From: Rhodobacteraceae bacterium Water-Bin34
Lineage (GTDB): Bacteria > Pseudomonadota > Alphaproteobacteria > Rhodobacterales > Rhodobacteraceae
Assembly (NCBI GenBank): GCA_900197625.1
Contig: FZLS01000020.1
Location: 1-43,467, forward strand
DNA: 43,467 nt
Direction: 5' to 3'
In this document: positions 13,693 to 43,467 of the stretch, one piece after another
Numbering within the stretch: position 1 is the stretch's first letter
How the letters are laid out: the number at the start of each line of letters is the position of its first letter
Program-made: the position numbers and the translations under genes
Notes under the pieces: generated by a model
What the model saw: the letters and a program-made list of their open reading frames with translations, nothing else
Told to the model about the DNA's origin: nothing
Database searches by the model: none

Positions 13693-14478
13693 TTAAGAAA
13701 CAGAATTTTTATACGTTTCGTAATACTTTTCTGCAATGAACTCGTGTCCTTCTTTATTGGGGTGCGCGTCTTGTTTACTTATCCTATAATTGTTTAGTTC
13801 TTCAGATAAATTATAACCGCCCAATGCATTTAAAATAGGATAGCCGAAAAATTTATTTCCATCTATTTCGTAGAATTCGGCTGGTTCAGACATTATTCTA
13901 GCCCATTCTCTTTCATTGTACTGCAACTCTTTTCCGTAATGTTTTTCTAACCAATTAAATCTACGAATTTCAAGATTGCCGCATACAAAACCGTGCACTA
14001 AATCTATGTTTAGTAATTCGCACATATTTTGAACTAAAAGTACATTTTTATAAAAATTATCTCTAATGGCTGTGAGAGGAGAGAGTTTAAAAGATACGTT
14101 TTTATCTAATAAATCATTCCACATCAAATCATAAAAATCCTTAGATTTAATATCAAGTGTACCTGCACCAAAAACCCCCTTTGAATATCTGACATTGTTT
14201 GCGTTTAAATTGTAATCGTTCCATACAGTATATCTTTCGGGTTGTGTCCAACCAACACAAACTAAATCTATTATATCAAAGTCTTTTATTAATTTTTGTA
14301 TCGCGCCAGTTGCGATCTTATCGTTACTTACACCTGACTTCCCAAGATTAATTACCTTTTTATTTAAACGTTTGCCTAAAATCTCAGGCCATTTTGGATA
14401 AGATACGTCATTCCCTGGCTCACGTGATATAAAATTTGGATCTGTAAAACTACAACCACTTGCTAAAATAAAACCCAT
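13693..14478 (-). CDS. SGNH/GDSL-family hydrolase
   Basis: A 261-residue protein with SGNH blocks: ILASGCSFTDP (Ser near residue 10), NLGKSGVSNDKIA (about 44), VCVGWTQPER near 75 and the catalytic DAHPNKEGHEF near 240. Members cleave esters, often acetyl groups on sugars. It is coupled to the carbamoyltransferase gene by a TAATG overlap. The two may remove and add groups on the same glycan. In phages such proteins are also used as glycan deacetylases on fibres, but no fibre domain is present here. Confidence 0.78.
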   Translation of the reverse strand: MGFILASGCSFTDPNFISREPGNDVSYPKWPEILGKRLNKKVINLGKSGVSNDKIATGAIQKLIKDFDIIDLVCVGWTQPERYTVWNDYNLNANNVRYSKGVFGAGTLDIKSKDFYDLMWNDLLDKNVSFKLSPLTAIRDNFYKNVLLVQNMCELLNIDLVHGFVCGNLEIRRFNWLEKHYGKELQYNEREWARIMSEPAEFYEIDGNKFFGYPILNALGGYNLSEELNNYRISKQDAHPNKEGHEFIAEKYYETYKNSVS

Positions 14479-15830
14479 TAAAAAACTTTAACCTTGTATT
14501 TCTTTTCAAAGTCAAGAGCGTGCTGCCAAGTATCAACCATGGGCTGCCCTTTAATATTAAGACTCGTATTTAATAACATAGGGCATCCTGTTTGTTCATG
14601 CCATTCTTCAAGAATAGGCCTTAATATAGATTTACAATTCTGTTTTACAACTTGAACTCTTGCTGTTCCGTCAACGTGAGTTACTGATGAGTAGTCATGC
14701 TTTGCTTTTGAAACAAATTGCATGTATTCGTTCATTGGCCCTTCGAAGTATTTATCAGCAAATTCTTCCAAGATTGAAGGCGCAAAGGGTCGAAATTTTT
14801 GTCTACGTTTAATTTCATTAACAGTATCTCTAACGTCTCGTCTAGGATCAGCAAGAAGGCTACGATTACCAAGGGCACGAGGGCCAAACTCAGCACGACC
14901 ATTCGCAACGCCGCAATAGGAATGATTAATAAGATGGTTAACAATTTCTTTAATTTTGGGGTCACGTTTAATCTCCGTTCCAAGATATGGATCAATCCAG
15001 TTTAATTTTTTACCATACGCTAAAGCAGCGGCACCAAGTGACGATCCGCAATCTCCTGGGTTTGGCATAATCCAAATGTTTTTGCCAAGCTCTGCTACTT
15101 TAGTATTAGCTACACAATTAAGAGCAACTCCTCCGCTTATAATCAAGTTTTCATGCAGACAATACTCATTAACCAATTCTAGTATTTTATCTTCAACAAC
15201 ACTTTGAGCTGATGCTGCTATGTCTTCATTTCTAAAACAAGAAGGTAAGTAACGTATTCCTTTGTGGTTATTGTGATATTCTAAATGGTCTCTCATAATT
15301 TCGTAATGAATTGGCTCTCCATACGCTGCCATACCCATCGTTATATATTCATCTTCTTGAGGGTTTAATCCTATATATTGAGTAATCGCAGAATAAAATA
15401 ATCCTATCGAATAAGGATATTTAAATGATTTGATTTTTGCCATGCGAGGTTTGCCACGTTTAACCCACGCTTTCCAAATAGAAACAGTATCCCATTCACC
15501 TATTGAATCGATAACTAATATATTACACGAGTCAAACTTTGAAGTGTAAAATCCAGAAGCAGCATGAGACTCATGATGGTAAAAAGAAACGTCGTAATTA
15601 ATCCTGGACTTTTTTCTTTGTTGACCAGCATACCATTGACGTGTTCGTTTTAACCAGTCTTTTTCAAAGAAGGCAATTTTATCAGCGTAATCTATCTGCG
15701 TGTAATGCAACCATTTATCATGTTTGATTCTACTAATTCTTTCAGAATGACTAGCAGATAAAATTTTACCATCTTTGATCAGAGTAGCTCCAGCATCATG
15801 AAAGCCTTCACTAATGCCTAGTATTTTCAT
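14478..15830 (-). CDS. NodU/CmcH-type O-carbamoyltransferase
   Basis: A 450-residue carbamoyltransferase. The Kae1-like N-terminal half shows ILGISEGFHDAGATLI, then SHSERISRIKHD and the metal-site YHHESHAASGFY near residue 88. The ISGGVALNCVANTK and NGRAEFGPRALGNRS segments follow. These proteins transfer carbamoyl from carbamoyl phosphate to sugar hydroxyls. It is somewhat shorter than NodU, mainly in the C-terminal domain, yet all key motifs are there. It lies in the sugar-modification region beside an SGNH hydrolase. Confidence 0.9.
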   Translation of the reverse strand: MKILGISEGFHDAGATLIKDGKILSASHSERISRIKHDKWLHYTQIDYADKIAFFEKDWLKRTRQWYAGQQRKKSRINYDVSFYHHESHAASGFYTSKFDSCNILVIDSIGEWDTVSIWKAWVKRGKPRMAKIKSFKYPYSIGLFYSAITQYIGLNPQEDEYITMGMAAYGEPIHYEIMRDHLEYHNNHKGIRYLPSCFRNEDIAASAQSVVEDKILELVNEYCLHENLIISGGVALNCVANTKVAELGKNIWIMPNPGDCGSSLGAAALAYGKKLNWIDPYLGTEIKRDPKIKEIVNHLINHSYCGVANGRAEFGPRALGNRSLLADPRRDVRDTVNEIKRRQKFRPFAPSILEEFADKYFEGPMNEYMQFVSKAKHDYSSVTHVDGTARVQVVKQNCKSILRPILEEWHEQTGCPMLLNTSLNIKGQPMVDTWQHALDFEKKYKVKVF

Positions 15831-31668: not shown

Positions 31669-32517
31669 CTAACTAAACATTTTAGCTTGAGTTGCTGGTC
31701 CAACGATGCCATCAGCTGTTAAACCGTTCATTTTTTGCCATTTCTTTACGGCAGTAAGAGTTCCAAATCCAAAATCACCGTCAGCTGTTACGCCAATTGC
31801 TTTTTGCATTTTCTTAACGTCATCTCCTTGCATACCTTTACGTAGAGTACGTACTGCGCCTTTTGATGTTTTCTTAGGAGCTGGTGCTTTACCGCCAAGG
31901 ATTGCTAATGCTTCGTCCCAACGGCGATTACGGTCGTCTAAACCAATAGTACCACCATTAATCTTTTTAGTTAATCCTTTATTATCGCCTTTATCTGCCC
32001 ACTTTTCTAATTTATTAGTAGACCAAAACCAGCAAGCAGACTCAATAGCGCCAGTAGGTGTTGAAACATACTCAGCCGCTTCTTCAGCAGTCATATCTAC
32101 TGTATTTGCGAATTGTGTATAATTATTTCTTCCTGTAAGCTGCTTGATACCTCTACCCCTAAAGAGCCAGCCATCGCCGGGATTAACGTTTCCCAAGGCT
32201 CCTCGTTTGGATCTAAACTCATCTTGATAGACATAGTTTGCGATTTTTTCTTGGTTTCTAGCATAGTCTTTTGCATTTCTTTTACCCTTTCCAAAGTAAC
32301 GACCAAATACTGAATTTAATGCTTTTTCTGAATAGTTAAGATTTTCTACTAAACGGGTAAAGTCTAATGACTCATGCGCACACTGGGCCATAAAGCCTGC
32401 GATACGATTATTTGTATTGATTTCATATTTTTCAAACATAGGAACTGCTGCTTCATACCAAGCTTCAGGATTTTTATTTGAAGGAATCATTGCACTGAAT
32501 TGTTCTAACGTAATCAT
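31669..32517 (-). CDS. Endolysin: GH19-type lysozyme with peptidoglycan-binding domain
   Basis: 282 residues. Residues 1 to about 205 form a GH19-like domain with the catalytic Glu in MAQCAHESLDF (Glu49), LFRGRGIKQLTGRNNY and SACWFWSTNKL. A linker leads to a PG_binding_1 domain at the end (VRTLRKGMQGDDVKKMQKAIG, DGDFGFGTL, GIVGPAT). It would cut the host wall at lysis. There is no signal peptide, so a holin is needed. Its ATG overlaps the upstream stop (ATGA). Confidence 0.92.
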   Translation of the reverse strand: MITLEQFSAMIPSNKNPEAWYEAAVPMFEKYEINTNNRIAGFMAQCAHESLDFTRLVENLNYSEKALNSVFGRYFGKGKRNAKDYARNQEKIANYVYQDEFRSKRGALGNVNPGDGWLFRGRGIKQLTGRNNYTQFANTVDMTAEEAAEYVSTPTGAIESACWFWSTNKLEKWADKGDNKGLTKKINGGTIGLDDRNRRWDEALAILGGKAPAPKKTSKGAVRTLRKGMQGDDVKKMQKAIGVTADGDFGFGTLTAVKKWQKMNGLTADGIVGPATQAKMFS

Positions 32518-33893: not shown

Positions 33894-34211
33894 TTAATAG
33901 TTTGTAACATCATCTTTATTGCCACCGGCTTTTGTAACTAATTTCTTAGTAGCTCTCATAATACCTTTTTTACGCTTAGACGTATTCTGGAAATCAGAAG
34001 CGTCATCAGAAGCTTTGTTAATATAAGTTCCCAACTTTTCAGGTGATAATTCATCGAGTTGCTCAGTTGACTCGTTTTTCTTTTTGCGCATCATAGCGAA
34101 ATCATCACCGTCGATGTCTCCATCGTTATCTTTATCTAACGCTTTTTGACCAGCAGAAAGTTTCTTTTTCATTTCGTCTAATTCGTTAATGAATGTACTA
34201 AACCGTTTCAT
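33894..34211 (-). CDS. Putative internal head protein with CTS-like start, EF-hand-like loop and DELSPE module
   Basis: 105 residues. The start MKRFSTFINE matches the recurring capsid-targeting-like peptide of this cassette. Residues 26-38 (DKDNDGDIDGDDF) form an EF-hand or dockerin-like calcium loop. ESTEQLDELSPEKLG near residue 47 is shared with the 713-residue protein at 37599. The tail is basic. It has its own TATAAATA promoter at ideal spacing and an AAGGA site. This suggests a late protein packed into the head. Confidence 0.72.
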   Translation of the reverse strand: MKRFSTFINELDEMKKKLSAGQKALDKDNDGDIDGDDFAMMRKKKNESTEQLDELSPEKLGTYINKASDDASDFQNTSKRKKGIMRATKKLVTKAGGNKDDVTNY

Positions 34212-34242
34212 TTTGATTTCCTTTTTGTATGTTTATTGGTAG

Positions 34243-34250
34243 TATTTATA
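34243..34250 (-). promoter_or_regulatory. T4-type late promoter box TATAAATA
   Basis: Exact consensus 31 bases before the ATG at 34211, in the only intergenic gap of the cassette. Same spacing as the boxes at 31661 and 39773. Confidence 0.75.
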
Positions 34251-34256
34251 AAAAAA

Positions 34257-34565
34257 TTACCATTTGACCTTATCAGCCCAGTATGCAGCTGACATTTTAC
34301 CCTTAGCAATATTTTTGCCGTGGCGTGCTTTAAACGATTTACGTTTAGCTTTCATTCTATCAGACTCACCCTTTTTAGGATCGCCGGCAGTTGAAGCACC
34401 TTGCTGACCAAAACGAATTGTTTTAACTCTATCGCCGTCTTTAGCAACAACAATATGACTTTTAGTAGGATGCGAAGGAGTACCTTTAGCTTTGTTGAAA
34501 CCTTTTACACCAGCTCGAGCTAAACGTGGATCTTTTTCTTCTGCAAACTGTTTAAACTTTTTCAT
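34257..34565 (-). CDS. Putative internal head protein with basic RFG/RKSFKARH domain
   Basis: 102 residues from the ATG at 34565 (AAGGA upstream). It starts MKKFKQFAEEKDPRLARAG (CTS-like). The domain after it has VKTIRFGQQGAST, RMKAKRKSFKARHGKNI and MSAAYWADKVKW, a pattern seen in many phage virion proteins of unknown role. It is very basic, so it could bind packaged DNA. It follows the HD-domain gene by one base. Confidence 0.72.
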   Translation of the reverse strand: MKKFKQFAEEKDPRLARAGVKGFNKAKGTPSHPTKSHIVVAKDGDRVKTIRFGQQGASTAGDPKKGESDRMKAKRKSFKARHGKNIAKGKMSAAYWADKVKW

Positions 34566-34566
34566 C

Positions 34567-35124
34567 TCAGTATTCCTTAATCTTTTTCTCAATAGCAGAC
34601 ATAATCTTATTATGAGTTTTACTTAAGTATCTATCTGATCTGAGACGTTTTAGAGCCAGCCTCGTATCAGCAGCATATTTCTTTTGAAATTTAGCCGGTC
34701 GTGTATCAATATCCTGTACGTTAGCAAGCCGATCCGCGAGTTTAACTACTAATGCCCAGCTTGACATCTTAGCCATTTTACCAGCAATGTATTCGCCTTT
34801 ACCAATCGCATCAGATGCAGCCTTATCAGTTGTTAATTCCTGAACCATATCAGCTACAAGAGCACCAAACTGTTTAACCAAATCTGCATATGTAGTATCA
34901 GTATCTTCAATAGTATCATGCAAATATGCTGCTTGTACTAATGCAGAAAGATTGTTTGATTTTTTAAACTTTTGTACGAACCTAGCAACTTCTTTTGGAT
35001 GCTCAATGTATTTACCACCGCTTTTCCTAAACTGGCCTTTATGAGCCTTAGTCGCAACCCTTAAAGCTTTAAGTGCGCTTTCGTTTAAAGTATCTTCAGC
35101 TATGTATGTTTTAAAACTTTTCAT
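34567..35124 (-). CDS. SpoT/Mesh1-type (p)ppGpp hydrolase with CTS-like start
   Basis: 185 residues. After a start like the T4 capsid-targeting sequence (MKSFKTYIAEDTLNES) comes an HD domain with all metal and substrate motifs of the SpoT hydrolase group: AHKGQFRKSGGKYIEHP (His42), YLHDTIEDTDTTY (His69, Asp70, Glu73, Asp74), LVADMVQELTTDK, KMSSWALVVKLADRLANV (Asp131). No synthetase or regulatory domain is present, as in the small alarmone hydrolases. It would remove the 3' pyrophosphate of ppGpp. Presence in a cassette of internal proteins suggests delivery with the DNA. Confidence 0.85.
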   Translation of the reverse strand: MKSFKTYIAEDTLNESALKALRVATKAHKGQFRKSGGKYIEHPKEVARFVQKFKKSNNLSALVQAAYLHDTIEDTDTTYADLVKQFGALVADMVQELTTDKAASDAIGKGEYIAGKMAKMSSWALVVKLADRLANVQDIDTRPAKFQKKYAADTRLALKRLRSDRYLSKTHNKIMSAIEKKIKEY

Positions 35125-35148
35125 CTAATATCTCTATTTCTTCTTTAG

Positions 35149-36045
35149 TTAGGCCCGTTCTTTATCGTAAGGCTCGTGGTCCTCTTGGCTATGAACTTTG
35201 AAATGATGTACATTAAATCCATCTGTTGTTTTGTGAGATTTAATATGTTTTAATTTAGTGCCTGATGGAACTACTGTTTCTTTTTCACTGCTTCCTTCAG
35301 ATTTAGAACCTTTTCCATCCACATGAACAGCTTTAGTTTTTTTATGAGCATGAATTACAACAACATGTCCGCTCCCAAAATTTGTTGCTGACTTATGATC
35401 GTGCGAAGTAGACATATGAGCTGGATTGTGAATTATACCATCTTTACTCTTTTTAGCAGCTGCACCAAAGTCGTGATGTGACCCATGATACAAAGTCATT
35501 TTCTTACCAAGAGGCTTAGCATGCTTATGGATTGTATGATGCACGTGAGCTTCAGATTTATGAATATCTATTAGTTGTTTATCATTGGGAAAATATTTGT
35601 GATCGTCCATATGCGCATGATTACTTTTGTAGACTTGATGTTTACGTGCCTGAAATTTACTATAGCCATGGCCCTGATTTTTTTGGTGACTACCTATCAA
35701 ATGCTCATTCATCTCTGTTGAGTTACGTTTAAAATGATCGAAAGCTTTTGCCTCATGTTTATCTTTATGTGCACCCGCAGAATGATCAGACAAATGTTTA
35801 CTGTGATCTTTTTTATTATACTTAGCGGCATGTTCATCTAAAGATTTTTCATGATCTGCTTTACCGCCAAAGGCTTTTTTAACCTTAGCTATTATAGATT
35901 CATTAGTATCTTTTTTCTTTTCTTTTTTTCTGTCGAATGAAGTATCATGCGCAACAAAAACGTTTCCGTCCTTATCTGTATCAAATCCTTTTGTTGGGCC
36001 CTTATTTTCTTCTTCTTCTGCTATGTATTGCTTAAACGTTTTCAT
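35149..36045 (-). CDS. His-rich protein with ADP-ribosyltransferase-like C-terminus and CTS-like start
   Basis: 298 residues. The start MKTFKQYIAEEEEN closely resembles the T4 internal-protein targeting peptide. Residues 60-180 are very rich in His and Lys. The last third looks like an ADP-ribosyltransferase: TLYHGSHHDF (185-192), PAHMSTSHDHKSATNFG with an STS motif (212-214), VVVIHAHK strand, and SSEKETVVPSGTK with an ExE pair (Glu254, Glu256). The first-motif Arg of the R-S-E class is His here. T4 Alt, an injected RNA polymerase modifier, is a parallel. Activity is inferred. Confidence 0.65.
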   Translation of the reverse strand: MKTFKQYIAEEEENKGPTKGFDTDKDGNVFVAHDTSFDRKKEKKKDTNESIIAKVKKAFGGKADHEKSLDEHAAKYNKKDHSKHLSDHSAGAHKDKHEAKAFDHFKRNSTEMNEHLIGSHQKNQGHGYSKFQARKHQVYKSNHAHMDDHKYFPNDKQLIDIHKSEAHVHHTIHKHAKPLGKKMTLYHGSHHDFGAAAKKSKDGIIHNPAHMSTSHDHKSATNFGSGHVVVIHAHKKTKAVHVDGKGSKSEGSSEKETVVPSGTKLKHIKSHKTTDGFNVHHFKVHSQEDHEPYDKERA

Positions 36046-36500
36046 TTTTTTGCCTTTTTCGCCAGATCTTTATCTGCTCCACCCCAAGTACCAGATGATT
36101 TTGTAATAAAAGAATTTACTCGTGCATGACCCCATTGTTGTGGTGTAGTACCAGGTTTATGACCAGTACGCCATGCCGCAACACCTCTATTATATACTTT
36201 ACGTAAAATACCTGCGGCCATACCTGATTTTTTTGCTTTATCTGCTAAAGATTTACCAGCAGCGTCTTCTCCTAAGAAATCAAACTCTTCGTTTGTAAAG
36301 CCCATTGCGCGTGCTTTCTTTGTATGCTTTGACTCTTTAGTCTTAGCATCTTTATCTCCTGGAGCAGGTTTATAGGCAGCTGGATTACCATCATCCATCT
36401 TTGCACCCTTTTCAAAATGACGTTCTCTATCGTCTTTTTGTTTTTTAGGGATGCCTTTATAGTAACTAGCATTTTCTGTAAACTGAATAAATCTTTTCAT
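36042..36500 (-). CDS. Putative internal head protein with RGVAAWRTGHKPG domain
   Basis: 152 residues starting MKRFIQFTENASYYKG. The C-terminal 60 residues (GMAAGILRKVYNRGVAAW, RTGHKPGTTPQQWGHARVNS, FITKSSGTWGGADKDL) match a small domain found in many phage structural or internal proteins without a known activity. The stop overlaps the next start (ATGA). Lys-rich and acidic patches alternate in the middle, as in scaffold-core proteins. Confidence 0.7.
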   Translation of the reverse strand: MKRFIQFTENASYYKGIPKKQKDDRERHFEKGAKMDDGNPAAYKPAPGDKDAKTKESKHTKKARAMGFTNEEFDFLGEDAAGKSLADKAKKSGMAAGILRKVYNRGVAAWRTGHKPGTTPQQWGHARVNSFITKSSGTWGGADKDLAKKAKK

Positions 36501-36877
36501 ACTTTCACCACGTCGTTTGGGGTTCTAAAGTTCTTTTTACGCATGATAGTTTTATGCGTAATCTCGAATTCACCTTTGTTATAATGAATAACAATAGGCA
36601 AATTTAAATCTGTATCAATATCTTTTAAGACAGCTTGTACATCAGGCCCTAACTGTTTAATCGATTTGCCTTTTCTCTTAGCAATCTTTTTAAATAGTTT
36701 CTGAAGTTCTGCTATCTTAATCTCTGGTTTGTTTCTTGGATCATTCATTCTATCTGCAAAATGTCTAGAAAACTCGATATCTATGTTGTACTTATTAAGC
36801 AGTTTATCGCCGAATTTTTCTAAATCAGTAATCTGTCTCTGAGTTACTCTTTCGCAAAACAGTTTAAATCTTAACAT
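36497..36877 (-). CDS. Putative internal protein, conserved in T4-like marine phages
   Basis: 126 residues starting MLRFKLFCERVTQRQ (CTS-like). The rest has LEKFGDKLLNKYNIDIEFSRHF, here in pieces (DKLLNKYNIDIEF, SRHFADRMNDPRN), then ELQKLFKKI and LNLPIVIHYNKGEFEITHKTIMRKK in pieces (LPIVIHYNKGEFEI, THKTIMRKKNF). The layout of helix followed by strands with a conserved His and Arg could be a RelE/barnase-like nuclease fold; this is only a suggestion. Similar proteins are common in marine T4-like phages. Confidence 0.68.
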   Translation of the reverse strand: MLRFKLFCERVTQRQITDLEKFGDKLLNKYNIDIEFSRHFADRMNDPRNKPEIKIAELQKLFKKIAKRKGKSIKQLGPDVQAVLKDIDTDLNLPIVIHYNKGEFEITHKTIMRKKNFRTPNDVVKV

Positions 36878-36881
36878 TTAA

Positions 36882-37112
36882 TTAACTCTTTTCCGACTTC
36901 ATATAATCTCTTGCAGTATCAATGTAATCTGTGGCTTTGGTAATTTTACCTTGAACCCATTCTGGCAGATTATCATCATCACCCAACATATTAGATAATT
37001 CGGTTGCTGCATCTATCATTGTGCGTAAAGATGTCTTAGCCATACTACCTTCTTGATCGTATTCGCCAGGATTTTGATTTTTTGCTTCTAAGAAGTATTT
37101 AAAATTTTTCAT
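36882..37112 (-). CDS. Small putative internal protein, conserved in T4-like marine phages
   Basis: 76 residues starting MKNFKYFLEAKNQNPGEYD (CTS-like). The rest is helical and acidic: AKTSLRTMIDAATELSNML, then DDDNLPEWVQGKITKATDYID in two pieces (DDNLPEWVQGKI, TKATDYIDTARDYM). The NLPEWVQxK motif is conserved in marine T4-like phages. GGAG precedes the ATG. Function unknown. Confidence 0.72.
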   Translation of the reverse strand: MKNFKYFLEAKNQNPGEYDQEGSMAKTSLRTMIDAATELSNMLGDDDNLPEWVQGKITKATDYIDTARDYMKSEKS

Positions 37113-37606
37113 GAAGTAGCTCCAGTTTTAGCAGGTTTTATAGGTGTATTAGCTCTTTCTCTTGCTTTCTTTTTTGCATCGTCGTATCTTGCTTTCATCT
37201 TAGTAAGTCTTTCACGATCTTTATTCTTTTGTTCAGCTTTTTTAGCTTTTTTCTCAGCTGCGTCTGCCCTACCTGCAACAGATGCTCTCCTAACGCCTTT
37301 ACCAGCTAATCTTGCTCCACCCACAACTGTTTTAGCAGCGCCTCTAAATACTCCTGATAAAGCTTTTCCAACAAGACCTTCATCTACGTCTTCTTTAGGC
37401 ACACAATCTGGTACCATCTTATCGCCTTTTTTCTTCATTCCTACCTGTTTATGAGTATCCCAACAAGCTTCATTCTTTGCATTGCAGTTACAATGTTCAC
37501 AAGTTGGTGGGCAATCACAATCTTCTCTTTTAACATCGGAACCACAACATTTATCTGAGCAATGTGTGTCTCTCGCTTCAGCAACAAATTGTTTAAAACT
37601 AAGCAT
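37109..37606 (-). CDS. Cys-rich putative internal protein
   Basis: 165 residues starting MLSFKQFVAEARDTHCSDK (CTS-like, very close to the T4 peptide MKTYQEFIAEA). Residues 15-50 contain about ten cysteines (HCSDKCCGSD, REDCDCPPTCEHCNCNA, EACWD), suited to a zinc or other metal cluster. A CWDTHKQVGMKKKGDKM module (common in marine phage head proteins) follows, then an amphipathic Gly-rich part and a long Lys/Ala helix. It overlaps both neighbours. Confidence 0.68.
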   Translation of the reverse strand: MLSFKQFVAEARDTHCSDKCCGSDVKREDCDCPPTCEHCNCNAKNEACWDTHKQVGMKKKGDKMVPDCVPKEDVDEGLVGKALSGVFRGAAKTVVGGARLAGKGVRRASVAGRADAAEKKAKKAEQKNKDRERLTKMKARYDDAKKKARERANTPIKPAKTGATS

Positions 37607-39771: not shown

Positions 39772-40455
39772 CTATTTATAATATTTATGAAAAGAGGGTA
39801 TAAATTCATAATTACTATCAGAACTTTGTTGCCATATAGTAGATTCCCTTAACCATCCTATAGCTGGTGTAGGTGATGCTATAGTTAAAGGCATTGCAGT
39901 TCTGCGTTGTCTTCTAATAAAATAATCATTATCTATTGCACTATGAATGCCCTGTACACTCAATTCGTTGAGTAAGAATTTAGCAGTTCTTTTAGTTATT
40001 GCATAAGCATGAGCCCCTTCATGTCCGTCAATTCTTATTAAATCGTTAGGAACACCAGCAGATTTGTGATCGTATCTATCTTTATCTTTAACCTTATAAC
40101 CAAGAACAACGATAGTGTTCTCTGGTATTTGTATAGTTATTGGTTGTAACATGACTGCATCATGTTCTAAAACTATACCTACATCATGTTTAGACTTAGC
40201 AATTTTCTGCCATATAGCAAAATGACCAGCAGTAGCACACATAGCTTTATGGCCAGTAGAAGGATTATCGATATGACTATATGTTTCTACTGGTAGATTT
40301 TTAATATTTAAAGTATTGAAAGCCATCTTTCCAGACATGTTCTGAAACCCTTGAAAATATTCCCAATCAAGTCCTACGTTATCACAACTATCAGAACAAA
40401 CCTTAGCATACTCATTCGATGCTTGAGTATTAATCTTTAATATGTAAGCTTTCAT
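39772..40455 (-). CDS. GT25-like glycosyltransferase
   Basis: 227 residues. GT25 (LPS/procollagen galactosyltransferase) segments: YILKINTQ at the start, GHKAMCATAGHFAIWQKI near 68, and the acidic motif VGIVLEHDAVML near 93, followed by GAHAYAITKRTAKFLL near 144. It would add a sugar, usually galactose, to surface glycan. It is the last gene of a four-gene sugar cassette and overlaps its neighbour by four bases. Confidence 0.8.
   Translation of the reverse strand: MKAYILKINTQASNEYAKVCSDSCDNVGLDWEYFQGFQNMSGKMAFNTLNIKNLPVETYSHIDNPSTGHKAMCATAGHFAIWQKIAKSKHDVGIVLEHDAVMLQPITIQIPENTIVVLGYKVKDKDRYDHKSAGVPNDLIRIDGHEGAHAYAITKRTAKFLLNELSVQGIHSAIDNDYFIRRQRRTAMPLTIASPTPAIGWLRESTIWQQSSDSNYEFIPSFHKYYK
39773..39780 (-). 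promoter_or_regulatory. T4-type late promoter box TATAAATA
   Basis: Exact consensus 32 bases before the ATG at 39740, overlapping the end of the upstream GT25-like gene. It fixes the start choice and probably drives the whole internal-protein cassette. Confidence 0.75.
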
Positions 40456-41123
40456 ACGTAAGTCTCTTCTAATAACTCGTTGTATAATTCAACATCTGAA
40501 CCAAAGAATTTGTTTAAATTATCAGTGGCAAACTCGTTAAACTTTATTTCGTTATCTCTGTTTTTTCTAAAATCTGTCTTGTGCTGTGGTAACATATGTG
40601 TTACCGATAAGTTTAGTTCTCGCATTAGTTGACTTAAATCGTTATGAAAGTTCTGATACAACCAATACTCTCCTGCAATTTTGTTATCGATTTTTAAAAA
40701 AGATGATTGTAATATACCTGAGTTAGGTTCGCCGAGAAAATGGCCTCTTGGTGTCCAAGCATTGTATTGTTCAATGCTTGCCCGAGAACCAGGTTGTTTC
40801 CATTTTTTATAAAAATAGTAAAAGCTTTTTTGTCTATCGACTGGATCTCTTATAACACAAATAGAACGATACGATAATGCTTGTTCTTTCGTAATAATAT
40901 TATTATCAATTATATCTTGCAAAGTAAAATGATAAAATTTAAAATCGGTTTTATATCTATTAATAATATCCTGACTTAATGTTCCTTTTATATTACTATC
41001 TTCTACTGGAGTGTATATGGCGCCAGGATCAGGTATGTTTCTAATAAAAAATTCTGATAAACTACTACTAGCTGTTTTCGGAGATCTTAAAAATATCAAT
41101 TTATATTTGTGAGATATGTACAT
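40452..41123 (-). CDS. Sulfotransferase-like protein
   Basis: 223 residues. The 5'-phosphosulfate loop is FLRSPKTASSSLSEF (residues 11-25) and the 3'-phosphate motif is CVIRDPVDRQKSFYYFY near 90. Both are typical of the Sulfotransfer_2 group. It would move sulfate from PAPS to a glycan or other hydroxyl. It lies between two glycosyltransferases, which points to a sulfated sugar. A second such domain is fused to a GT17-like domain at 19183. Confidence 0.82.
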   Translation of the reverse strand: MYISHKYKLIFLRSPKTASSSLSEFFIRNIPDPGAIYTPVEDSNIKGTLSQDIINRYKTDFKFYHFTLQDIIDNNIITKEQALSYRSICVIRDPVDRQKSFYYFYKKWKQPGSRASIEQYNAWTPRGHFLGEPNSGILQSSFLKIDNKIAGEYWLYQNFHNDLSQLMRELNLSVTHMLPQHKTDFRKNRDNEIKFNEFATDNLNKFFGSDVELYNELLEETYV

Positions 41124-41773
41124 TATAAGCCCTTATCATATGTTATACTATTTGCATGGCCTGTTGATCCCCATTTATGATCTGCATAAACTTTATCAGG
41201 TCCGTCATATCTTTTAGCTCCGCCAATGTAAAACAAAGGAATAAAGTAATGAGAAGGCCAAACTCTAAGTTTATGCATCCAATGAGGAACGTGACGAGAT
41301 AAGAATAGATTACCTGTTGATCTAAAAGGTTCTGGGCTTAATTCGTTTGGCGTTAAGATGTGTAATGTATCTATAACATGTTTTACGAAATCATTGCCAG
41401 GATTACATGCCATGATAGGCTGAATAAAGTTTTGTCTGCCTCTTTCATTTTCATAACAAGAATAAGCATGATCCTCTGGTGCATTAAATAATTCTTCGGT
41501 GTTTTCTAAACAAGTCATATCTGCTTCTGGCCAAAAACCACCTCTTTCATATAACAACTCATACCTTATTAAGTCTGATACACCAGGCCATTTTTGCATC
41601 GCGTAATAACGATCAATTAAATGTTGGTTATGCCATTTACGATTATGAAGCATTTCGTCAGTGAAAATAGAATATTCCCAGTCTGGGTGTTTATCTCTCC
41701 AAGTGTGCATCCATGTAAGCGGAGCGGGTTTAGGTCCTATCCAAATCTGTGTCAGCTTCTTTTCAATGTTCAC
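41123..41773 (-). CDS. GT32-like (OCH1-type) glycosyltransferase
   Basis: 216 residues, probably from a GTG at 41773 that overlaps the upstream stop. TQIWIGPKPAPLTWMHTWR at the start and SDLIRYELLYERGGFWPEADM near 70 follow the GT32 layout, given here as WIGPKPAP, SDLIRYELLY and GGFWPEADM. The usual DxD (GGIYLDTD) is replaced by EAD, so metal binding may differ. A TTG further upstream is possible as a start. Substrate unknown. Confidence 0.78.
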   Translation of the reverse strand: MNIEKKLTQIWIGPKPAPLTWMHTWRDKHPDWEYSIFTDEMLHNRKWHNQHLIDRYYAMQKWPGVSDLIRYELLYERGGFWPEADMTCLENTEELFNAPEDHAYSCYENERGRQNFIQPIMACNPGNDFVKHVIDTLHILTPNELSPEPFRSTGNLFLSRHVPHWMHKLRVWPSHYFIPLFYIGGAKRYDGPDKVYADHKWGSTGHANSITYDKGL

Positions 41774-42333
41774 TTTTGCACCCACCAAATAAAATCATCT
41801 TCAACATTCCACGAGTTTTCTCCGTAAAATTCTGTAACTGCTTTTTGTACAGTAGGGAAATGAATATCATGTCCAAATACGATACCACCATCTCTCACCT
41901 TACTATCCCAAGCTTTAATATCTCTTAGGCAACCTTCATATCCATGATCAGCATCAATGAATACAAAATCCAACGAACCATCATAAACTGTTTTTGCAGC
42001 TTCTGTAGTATAGTCTTTAATTATATCAGTTCTATCTGGGTGTTTTATTGAAAACTCTCTCATATCATTATAATATGCGTTATGGTTCCAAGCATGACCA
42101 TGTTCGCCTGGAGTCCACTTTTCTGGACCGGTATTTTCTGGTTGTGGCTCGTATAAATCTACGCCGATTAAATGTAAATTGGGACAATTATTAATTAAAT
42201 ATTTGTAATTAACACCGTCATGAACTCCTAGTTCTGCGCCTCTTCTCCAACCGTTGGTATTTACAAATCTCGCTAATGTTTGCCACCTATAGACGTTTCC
42301 GCCATCATTACCTCTATCACGTATTCTTCCCAT
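41770..42333 (-). CDS. Class I SAM-dependent methyltransferase-like protein
   Basis: 187 residues from the ATG at 42333 (GGAG upstream). SAM motif I is RGAELGVHDGVNYKYL, then LIGVDLYEP, and DFVFIDADHGYEGCLRDIKAW, split as VFIDADHGYEG and CLRDIKAWDS, with GGIVFGHDIH. This is a Methyltransf_24-type protein. First gene of the sugar cassette, just after a terminator. It probably methylates a sugar. Confidence 0.8.
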   Translation of the reverse strand: MGRIRDRGNDGGNVYRWQTLARFVNTNGWRRGAELGVHDGVNYKYLINNCPNLHLIGVDLYEPQPENTGPEKWTPGEHGHAWNHNAYYNDMREFSIKHPDRTDIIKDYTTEAAKTVYDGSLDFVFIDADHGYEGCLRDIKAWDSKVRDGGIVFGHDIHFPTVQKAVTEFYGENSWNVEDDFIWWVQK

Positions 42334-42352
42334 AATATTTCTCCGTTGAATC

Positions 42353-42385: not shown

Positions 42386-42392
42386 ATTTATA
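42385..42392 (-). promoter_or_regulatory. Late-promoter-like box TATAAATA directly before the terminator
   Basis: Exact consensus whose first base touches the terminator stem. A transcript from here would start within the hairpin and so could escape it, leading into the sugar cassette. Confidence 0.5.
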
Positions 42393-42516: not shown

Positions 42517-42578
42517 TACTTGCCGCCTTTTTTCTTTTCACCTTTTGGCTTTACGTAAGTATGATCTGGATCTATCAT
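42516..42578 (-). CDS. Tiny ORF (20 aa)
   Basis: An ATG at 42578 overlaps the pseudoazurin stop (ATGA), has AGGAG at good spacing and encodes MIDPDHTYVKPKGE plus a Lys/Gly end. It may be a real peptide or only carry ribosomes to the next ORF. Confidence 0.45.
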   Translation of the reverse strand: MIDPDHTYVKPKGEKKKGGK

Positions 42579-42997
42579 AGTTCTCCTAACAAAGCCTTAA
42601 GCTTTTTCTTTGATTTGCCTTTTACTTTAGCTTTTGAAATATCGTTATCTCCGTCACCTACAACTACAATAGCAATCATACCCATTGTTTTATGTGGCGA
42701 ACATTGATACAGATATACGCCTGGCGTATCAAAACGCATCTCAACTACTTTATTTAATTTTGATTTCTTTGGTTTTTTCCAACCATCTGGTCCTGCAATA
42801 AATTCTACGTTATGACCTTTTGATGTTGGTACCCATGTGATGATCTCACCTACTTCAATACGTGTAATATCTTGTGAGTAAACCATCTTAGCGCCATCGT
42901 CGCGCTTATTTAACATTTCGATTGTTACATCAGCATTGGCAGCTGACACTGTAAAAATTGCGGCAAACATTGCCAAGTAAAAATAAAGTGTTTTCAT
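42575..42997 (-). CDS. Pseudoazurin (blue copper protein)
   Basis: 140 residues. A signal peptide (LYFYLAMFAAIFTVSAANA) directs it to the periplasm. The mature protein follows the pseudoazurin layout: VTIEMLNK, GEIITWVPTSKGHNVEFI (ligand His62) and the C-terminal loop YQCSPHKTMGM with Cys99, His102 and Met107 at the right spacing. All four copper ligands are present. It carries electrons between c-type cytochromes or a bc1 complex and periplasmic reductases or oxidases. It is part of the cassette with AtpE. The last 20 residues are a Lys-rich tail. Confidence 0.92.
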   Translation of the reverse strand: MKTLYFYLAMFAAIFTVSAANADVTIEMLNKRDDGAKMVYSQDITRIEVGEIITWVPTSKGHNVEFIAGPDGWKKPKKSKLNKVVEMRFDTPGVYLYQCSPHKTMGMIAIVVVGDGDNDISKAKVKGKSKKKLKALLGEL

Positions 42998-43009: not shown

Positions 43010-43144
43010 TTAATAAGTTGGGTACATTTTCTGTTTGAACTCAGAGATCTCATCAGCCTTTGAATAGTAACCTCTGTTTCTTAGTTCTCTTATTGCCATA
43101 CAGTAACTTCTGTATTCCATTGCCCTCATAAATTTTTTAAACAT
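43010..43144 (-). CDS. Small basic hypothetical protein (44 aa)
   Basis: An ATG at 43144, preceded by GAGGAAA, opens 44 codons between the membrane protein and pseudoazurin. The start MFKKFMRAMEYRSYCM and the Arg/Tyr-rich rest (IRELRNRGYYSKADE) resemble short proteins of other marine phages. It is soluble and basic. Function unknown. Confidence 0.65.
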   Translation of the reverse strand: MFKKFMRAMEYRSYCMAIRELRNRGYYSKADEISEFKQKMYPTY

Positions 43145-43159
43145 TACGTTTCCTCTTCC

Positions 43160-43381
43160 TTACATCTTTTTGCAGTCAAAGAATGATTTCTCTAACTGTA
43201 TTGGTACACCGCCTTTTGCGATGCATACTTCTTTCCAACTCGGTTGTTTATATTTGTCAATTACAGCATAAAATCCGAATGCTATACATATTACTATTAA
43301 TGAAGTCATAACTACAAACATATAGAAACCTAACTTCTGCACTACCTGTGCTGATATTTCCATATGTTGATCGCCAATCAT
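43160..43381 (-). CDS. Small membrane protein
   Basis: 73 residues from an ATG overlapping the stop of the AtpE-like gene (TAATG); a second ATG at 43363 is also possible. One strong membrane helix (LGFYMFVVMTSLIVICIAFGF) is followed by a soluble end with two Cys (EVCIAKGG and FFDCKKM). It is translationally coupled to AtpE. No family is recognised. Confidence 0.7.
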   Translation of the reverse strand: MIGDQHMEISAQVVQKLGFYMFVVMTSLIVICIAFGFYAVIDKYKQPSWKEVCIAKGGVPIQLEKSFFDCKKM

Positions 43382-43467
43382 TAGATGGCAAACATTAATA
43401 ATAATGCTACCAGGAATGCAAAGATACCTAATGCTTCAGCGAATGCTACGCCAACAAACATTGTACC
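43381..43467 (-). CDS. atpE: F-type ATP synthase subunit c, C-terminal end (partial)
   Basis: The frame enters from the right edge and gives 28 residues with segments FVGVAFAEALGIF and FLVALLLMFAI, then TAA. This is helix 2 of the F0 c subunit with the proton-carrying Glu in FAEALG, and is almost the same as alphaproteobacterial AtpE ends. The N-terminal helix lies outside the window. It overlaps the next small gene, so it is part of the phage operon and not a joined host fragment. Confidence 0.85.
   Translation of the reverse strand, partial: GTMFVGVAFAEALGIFAFLVALLLMFAI

Follow-up and report, generated by a model that had tools for sequence, protein, structure and literature searches.

The window, which is the whole 43,467-nucleotide stretch of DNA analysed here, ends at its right edge within a phage gene for the c subunit of the F0 part of ATP synthase. 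The gene is of phage origin and of Rhodobacterales type, it is under purifying selection, it has no subunit a or alpha/beta genes beside it in the 25 viral records tested and it is tightly linked to a small partner gene and to a DUF1127-like gene. We propose, at slightly under an even chance, that its product is a copy of the ATP synthase c subunit that has kept the proton helix and, in the full relatives, lost the loop motif that holds F1, and that it would join or mimic the host Fo ring and let protons pass without ATP being made.

The c-subunit gene at the contig edge and its surroundings

The fragment on the minus strand at 43381..43467 comprises the last 28 codons and the stop of the phage gene and translates to GTMFVGVAFAEALGIFAFLVALLLMFAI-stop. 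The gene is cut at this edge because the window spans all of contig C102, one of the 274 contigs of a 3.6 Mb bin. What is visible is the second helix including the proton-binding glutamate. It matched positions 37-60 of the PF00137 profile with 25.4 bits, above the curated cut-off of 24, which bears out the original prediction of a proton-binding F0 c helix. The overlap with a small membrane gene was also seen correctly, since the stop of c and the ATG of the next gene have one base, position 43381, in common. Two markers of the phage type are present in the 28 residues: position 51 is Gly and position 55 is Val. These were found in 26/45 and 44/45 unique phage proteins, respectively, with Ala and Ile at the same positions in 67/67 unique Rhodobacterales sequences.

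Elsewhere on the contig there are phage families for a tail fibre, PhoH, an exonuclease, the large and small subunits of ribonucleotide reductase, thymidylate synthase, a primase and an endolysin. Judged from these families and from relatives that carry gp23, the contig is probably that of a T4-like phage. The bin has another contig, C78 (16,954 bp; locus L004), that begins within a phage-type c gene of which 62 residues are present, scoring 49.6 bits with PF00137 (cut-off 24). Its neighbours in common with the window are the partner, a 44 aa gene, a glycosyltransferase and a sulfotransferase. C102 and C78 share an identical stretch, the final 54 bases of C102, which would account for the assembly break at that point by an ordinary cause. 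C78 is a related phage contig within the bin, whose contamination of 5.1% is possibly in part phage. The cellular c gene of the bin is found on contig C106, flanked by genes that by inspection appear to be those of subunits a and b.

The partner (43160..43381, minus strand) follows c and codes for 73 residues with one predicted membrane helix and a cysteine-containing tail. An AlphaFold2 model showed one long helix from 3 to 44 and a tail of low confidence, and an alignment of 21 sequences had 10 invariant columns. The protein matches no family in Pfam, PHROG or NCBIfam. Its 78 database homologues all lack a Pfam domain and any name more specific than hypothetical protein. A Foldseek viral search with the model gave no match below E 0.9, and a search of the genome contigs with the partner gave no match. 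Next after it on the minus strand is a gene of 44 aa (MFKKFMRAMEYRSYC...; 43010..43144), the pattern of which was present in 20/51 unique related loci; neither the window copy nor the homologue in locus L016 matched a Pfam family. It is followed by a pseudoazurin-like blue copper protein (42575..42997, minus strand) with a signal-like N-terminus, a PF00127 match of 53.7 bits and membership in the PHROG PetE family. Its best PDB relatives are pseudoazurins (E 7.8e-22), and the product is likely a soluble electron carrier. Such a gene stands near c in 6/49 unique related loci; it is accessory and outside the core cassette. It would fit a phage that keeps electron flow going, though it is no constant part.

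Several other features of the window were recorded, all on the minus strand. Four consecutive genes at 39772-42339, for a GT25 glycosyltransferase, a sulfotransferase, a DXD glycosyltransferase and a methyltransferase, resemble surface-sugar modifiers, and a carbamoyltransferase with N- and C-terminal Carbam_trans domains is encoded at 14478-15830. Neighbouring genes at 33894-37606 have a common N-terminal signature like MKxFxxFIxE. The strict pattern was found in 5/69 minus-strand and 0/16 plus-strand ATG ORFs of 60 or more aa, with looser cases at 36042, 36497 and 36882. T4 internal proteins have a capsid-targeting signal similar to this signature, and the gene products may be packed in the head and injected. 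Within this run, the product of 35149-36045 has a weak ADP-ribosyltransferase match (PF03496, E 0.0011, below cut-off), which is reminiscent of T4 Alt, and 34567-35124 codes for a protein with an HD domain of the PF13328 type (58 bits), as occurs in ppGpp hydrolases.

The word TATAAATA, the late promoter word of the T4 type, occurs nine times on the coding (minus) strand of the window, at 42392, 39780, 34250, 31668, 22402, 9934, 4829, 3252 and 3186, and 0 times on the opposite strand; about 4.6 per strand would be expected from base composition. Among the related loci it was found within 900 bp upstream of the cassette in 11/46 unique cases, and a T4-type late promoter near upstream is therefore not supported. 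Nor is a sigma-70 promoter upstream, for which 4/48 regions reached at least 10/12, compared with 5.4% of shuffles.

Distribution and gene order on viral contigs

In IMG/VR, the host c subunit as query led to 70 loci and the partner gene to 12 further contigs, making 82 distinct contigs. When the phage c alignment was used for the scan, no further contigs appeared among the 80 listed of 83. An ORF of the partner family lies after c in 81/82 contigs, and the 82nd ends 21 residues into the partner. In the other direction, c was found within 400 bases upstream of the partner in 67/67 loci that had been found via the partner. In the unique loci having at least 700 bases upstream, a DUF1127-like gene precedes c in 48/48 and a gene of about 62 aa in 46/48, both counted with models for which eight of these loci had served as the basis. 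PF06568 was above its cut-off in all three DUF1127-like proteins submitted to Pfam, and the gene of about 62 aa gave no Pfam family above cut-off. At two loci, L113 and L115, other small genes stand in for the latter, one of them coding for a short hydrophobic protein, and the DUF1127-like gene is kept.

Viral marker genes were present on some of these contigs. The T4 gp23 capsid family was found in 4/25 viral records and a terminase family above cut-off in 5/25. For the other parts of ATP synthase, the same 25 records were searched for the alpha/beta family (PF00006) and for subunit a (PF00119), leaving out b, gamma, delta and epsilon; each gave 0/25 in these records, which may be fragments. 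That the c subunit is phage-encoded, as originally predicted, is well supported by 82 viral contigs, some with T4-type capsid or terminase genes. A Rhodobacterales-type c gene is fixed on phage genomes, as expected of a phage auxiliary metabolic gene.

Neither the phage c query nor the partner matched any of the 50,697 phage records of INPHARED, and PHROGs had no family for the composite c query or the partner. With the host c, three partial matches of E 0.03-0.2 were obtained in INPHARED. The E. coli c matched 11 records, five at full length with 100% identity and six partially; two of the five full-length matches lie in Salmonella genome records, where they carry the annotation ATP synthase c. 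Two of the 11 were inspected, one labelled Acinetobacter phage MD-2021a and the other a Campylobacter phage. In the former (L292; CAKLQH020000035.1 15798-23929), an atp operon of bacterial type lies beside zinc-uptake genes, so that the record looks like bacterial DNA filed as phage; the latter carries the mark 'unverified' and is unannotated. When IMG/VR was scanned with diverse cellular c subunits, the two patterns of the scan confirmed none, showing that stray bacterial operons are no visible part of that set.

Loop, helices and ancestry of the phage c subunit

The phage proteins were compared with cellular c subunits in sets of unique sequences. For the phage set, two scans gave 118 locus records, a few of which are truncated by the end of a contig; they reduce to 45 unique proteins. 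The Rhodobacterales set has 67 unique proteins, namely the bin's own c and 66 from public genomes; there were at least 575 genome loci, and the 66 are the unique sequences of the best 80. The polar-loop motif R[NQ]P was found in 0/45 unique phage proteins and 0/118 c records, and R-N-P in 67/67 unique Rhodobacterales proteins; R[NQ]P was present in 80/80 Rhodobacterales-like genome loci, again the best 80 of at least 575. Among other alphaproteobacterial loci, 27/29 had R[NQ]P and the remaining two QQP; this class sample consisted of the 30 loci of the first listing, one of which (L124) gave no alignment.

The loss extends beyond the motif. G38, A39, L40, R41, N42, P43, Q49 and A51 are each present in 67/67 unique Rhodobacterales c subunits. 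In the phage c the block G38-A39-L40-R41-N42-P43 together with Q49-x-A51 is lost, and single members remain in a few proteins. Position 41 is K in 37 of the 45 phage proteins, A in 5, S in 2 and L in 1, and a loop deletion of 3-5 residues was found in 37/45. The composite phage query had 490 database homologues; among the 120 that were listed, shortened entries included, 82 were without R[NQ]P. For the window phage itself the loop lies beyond the contig end, and the motif loss is predicted from the relatives.

The helices behave differently. Glu61, the ion-binding carboxylate of helix 2, is present in 45/45 unique phage proteins, and positions 58-66, 68-69 and 72-75 are almost invariant in the phage and Rhodobacterales sets alike. 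Helix 1 is present in the full phage homologues, for which a two-helix membrane hairpin is predicted. The original prediction had counted a full frame without the first helix or the polar loop against a c subunit; the full phage homologues retain the first helix and show the second of these refuting features, the loss of the polar loop motif. Positions 27 and 29 lie on the ring-packing face of helix 1 and hold Gly in 67/67 cellular sequences. Among the phage proteins, 19/45 have Ala at position 27, with Gly kept in 26/45, and 9/45 have Ala or Ser at position 29, with Gly kept in 36/45. The dN/dS of 52 unique coding sequences was 0.117 overall and 0.039 for helix 2; the loop gave 0.186, with dS close to saturation. 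The value for helix 2 shows that the phage c gene is under strong purifying selection.

The helix-2 segment also points to the source of the gene. Its identity was 0.78 to Rhodobacterales c (45 x 76) and 0.36 to other alphaproteobacterial c (45 x 21), where 76/80 and 21/29 sequences, respectively, were taken in and the rest lacked the pattern. Because of this difference, 78% vs 36%, the gene source is assigned by sequence to Rhodobacterales, and the phage host is probably also a member of this order.

NCBIfam's curated models for c subunits divided the phage proteins. With the general c-subunit model TIGR01260 (cut-off 43.95) the bin's own c passed at 44.5 and 0/4 phage c proteins did (25.6-34.0). 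With PRK07558 (cut-off 85), which gave 111.3 for the host's own c, the 78 aa phage forms L005 and L008 passed at 91.9 and 88.0, and the short-loop forms L016 and L012 failed at 64.9 and 67.6. By these scores the 78 aa forms are nearer to ordinary c subunits than the short-loop forms. A tree was computed from 45 phage rows, 35 of the 66 unique cellular sequences, the own host and 12 outgroup rows. In it the phage rows require two label changes, with or without the loop columns. In the tree without loop columns the starred branches force two changes, but a single clade is not rejected (p-AU 0.29). The loop may have been lost once or twice, both being compatible with the tree of such a short protein.

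Compared with the Rhodobacterales AtpE, for example that of Paracoccus denitrificans (5dn6) or of the own host on C106, the phage c thus has the predicted two-helix hairpin, the Glu61 site, a near-identical helix 2 and the PF00137 match in common. Unlike AtpE, it has no R-N-P and a loop that is usually 3-5 residues shorter, it is accompanied by no subunit a or alpha/beta on the 25 records, and it is tied to a partner gene without known family.

Possible action on the host ATP synthase

In the c-ring, the conserved helix 2 region is the contact to the adjacent c subunits and to subunit a, and the lost loop is the grip on gamma and epsilon. With the first contacts kept and the grip on F1 lost, the simplest reading is a subunit that enters or mimics the rotor and passes no torque to F1. 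The phage c would enter rings alongside the host c and work against the host subunit a, because the helix that contacts these partners is the conserved part. Rings containing phage c would hold the F1 foot (gamma/epsilon) poorly, and with F1 poorly bound Fo would leak or stall and respiration would be free of ATP demand. Proton flow and respiration would then go on while ATP synthesis falls. The partner may aid the assembly, or it may plug or cap the ring, sitting in or on it instead of F1. The absence of R-N-P from all 45 proteins disfavours a spare coupled c subunit, and we infer that the phage c would uncouple respiration from ATP synthesis. For the original suggestion of continued ATP synthesis there is no support, with R-N/Q-P in 0/45 phage proteins vs R-N-P in 67/67 of Rhodobacterales.

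Published work on cellular rings is consistent with parts of this proposal. The polar loop is described as belonging to the link between the ring and the central stalk (PMC3542316), the purified human c-ring is reported to form an ion channel that is inhibited on addition of F1 (PMC9433415), and a single altered c per ring (cE56D) is reported to reduce ATP synthesis (PMC8809890). The likeness to the human leak channel is that a c-ring unheld by F1 conducts, which the phage c would also do; in the human case the loss of F1 is a mitochondrial stress event (PMC9433415), whereas here the virus-coded subunit itself is without the F1-holding motif.

Three other readings of the conserved helix and the altered loop were weighed. 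The phage c could be functional in the ring and change its number of c subunits and hence the proton/ATP ratio, suiting infection. Helix 2 is conserved, and the two 78 aa forms pass the curated model PRK07558. Gly27, invariant in the 67 cellular proteins, is replaced by Ala in 19/45 phage proteins, and Gly29, likewise invariant in cells, by Ala or Ser in 9/45; replacements of Gly by Ala in this motif are reported to increase ring stoichiometry (PMC5376962). A changed ring size, as originally suggested, may follow from these replacements, but with Gly27 kept in 26/45 and Gly29 in 36/45 the change is not universal. Moreover, the R-N/Q-P expected in a coupled rotor is missing from all 45 unique phage forms, and we consider a working subunit unlikely. 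Distinctly unlikely is a stand-alone pore, in which c and partner would form a ring without host a or F1 and act as a channel or holin-like depolariser that times lysis or blocks a second infection. The 25 records with c and without a or alpha/beta, the partner gene fixed beside c and the conduction by purified human c-rings (PMC9433415) are in line with it. However, the proton-binding Glu and the host-type helix 2, which a simple pore does not need, are retained. The position of the gene also speaks against it: a holin typically sits in a lysis cassette beside the endolysin, and the window endolysin is at 31669-32517, about 10.9 kb from c at 43381-43467.

An inhibitor would likewise act on the host enzyme: phage c or the partner would halt it without a leak, for example against reverse-running ATP hydrolysis in starved or anoxic cells. 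Whole-ring activity is reported to be reduced by one altered c (PMC8809890), and a one-helix partner sits after c; the proton site, however, is intact, which argues for conduction over block and makes inhibition improbable. Host contamination or misassembly, by which a cellular atpE would have been joined to phage DNA, we regard as extremely improbable. It is true that the window gene is truncated at the contig end and that some INPHARED 'phage' records hold bacterial c genes, one of those inspected with a whole atp operon. This explanation was rejected, as it is refuted by the c-partner order common to 82 contigs from many assemblies; R[NQ]P in 0/118 c records and the scan with diverse cellular c subunits, which had none confirmed by its two patterns in IMG/VR, also speak against it.

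The proposed uncoupling rotor subunit can also be compared with known viral genes. Host-derived genes of central metabolism are carried on phage genomes as auxiliary metabolic genes, for example psbA, nrdA and phoH, and these are generally considered to retain their working motifs. The phage c is also host-derived, and the window has ribonucleotide reductase and PhoH families; unlike such genes with working motifs, it lacks the coupling motif in 45/45 unique proteins. A cyanophage clone from GOS is cited as carrying a, b and c genes (PMC3877843). It resembles our case in having an ATP synthase c gene on phage-like environmental DNA, but is reported with a, b and c together, whereas here c is without a in the records tested, of Rhodobacterales type and altered in the loop. 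A description of a lone viral c subunit without coupling motif was not found in the literature covered, which excluded most subscription journals.

ATP synthase is among life's most conserved machines. As a more doubtful extension of the uncoupling proposal, the phage c may be a virus-coded uncoupling protein made from a part of the rotary motor. In this view, phages would have removed the F1 grip from a host Fo subunit and combined the subunit with a small membrane plug; respiration in infected cells would then run with an open Fo and free of control by ATP synthase. If true, phages would steer host energy by exchanging a motor subunit, and the respiration of infected marine Rhodobacterales would be altered. 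A natural c subunit without R-N-P would be available for probing the role of the polar loop, and a virus would have a protein-coded means of setting the membrane energy via the cell's own motor.
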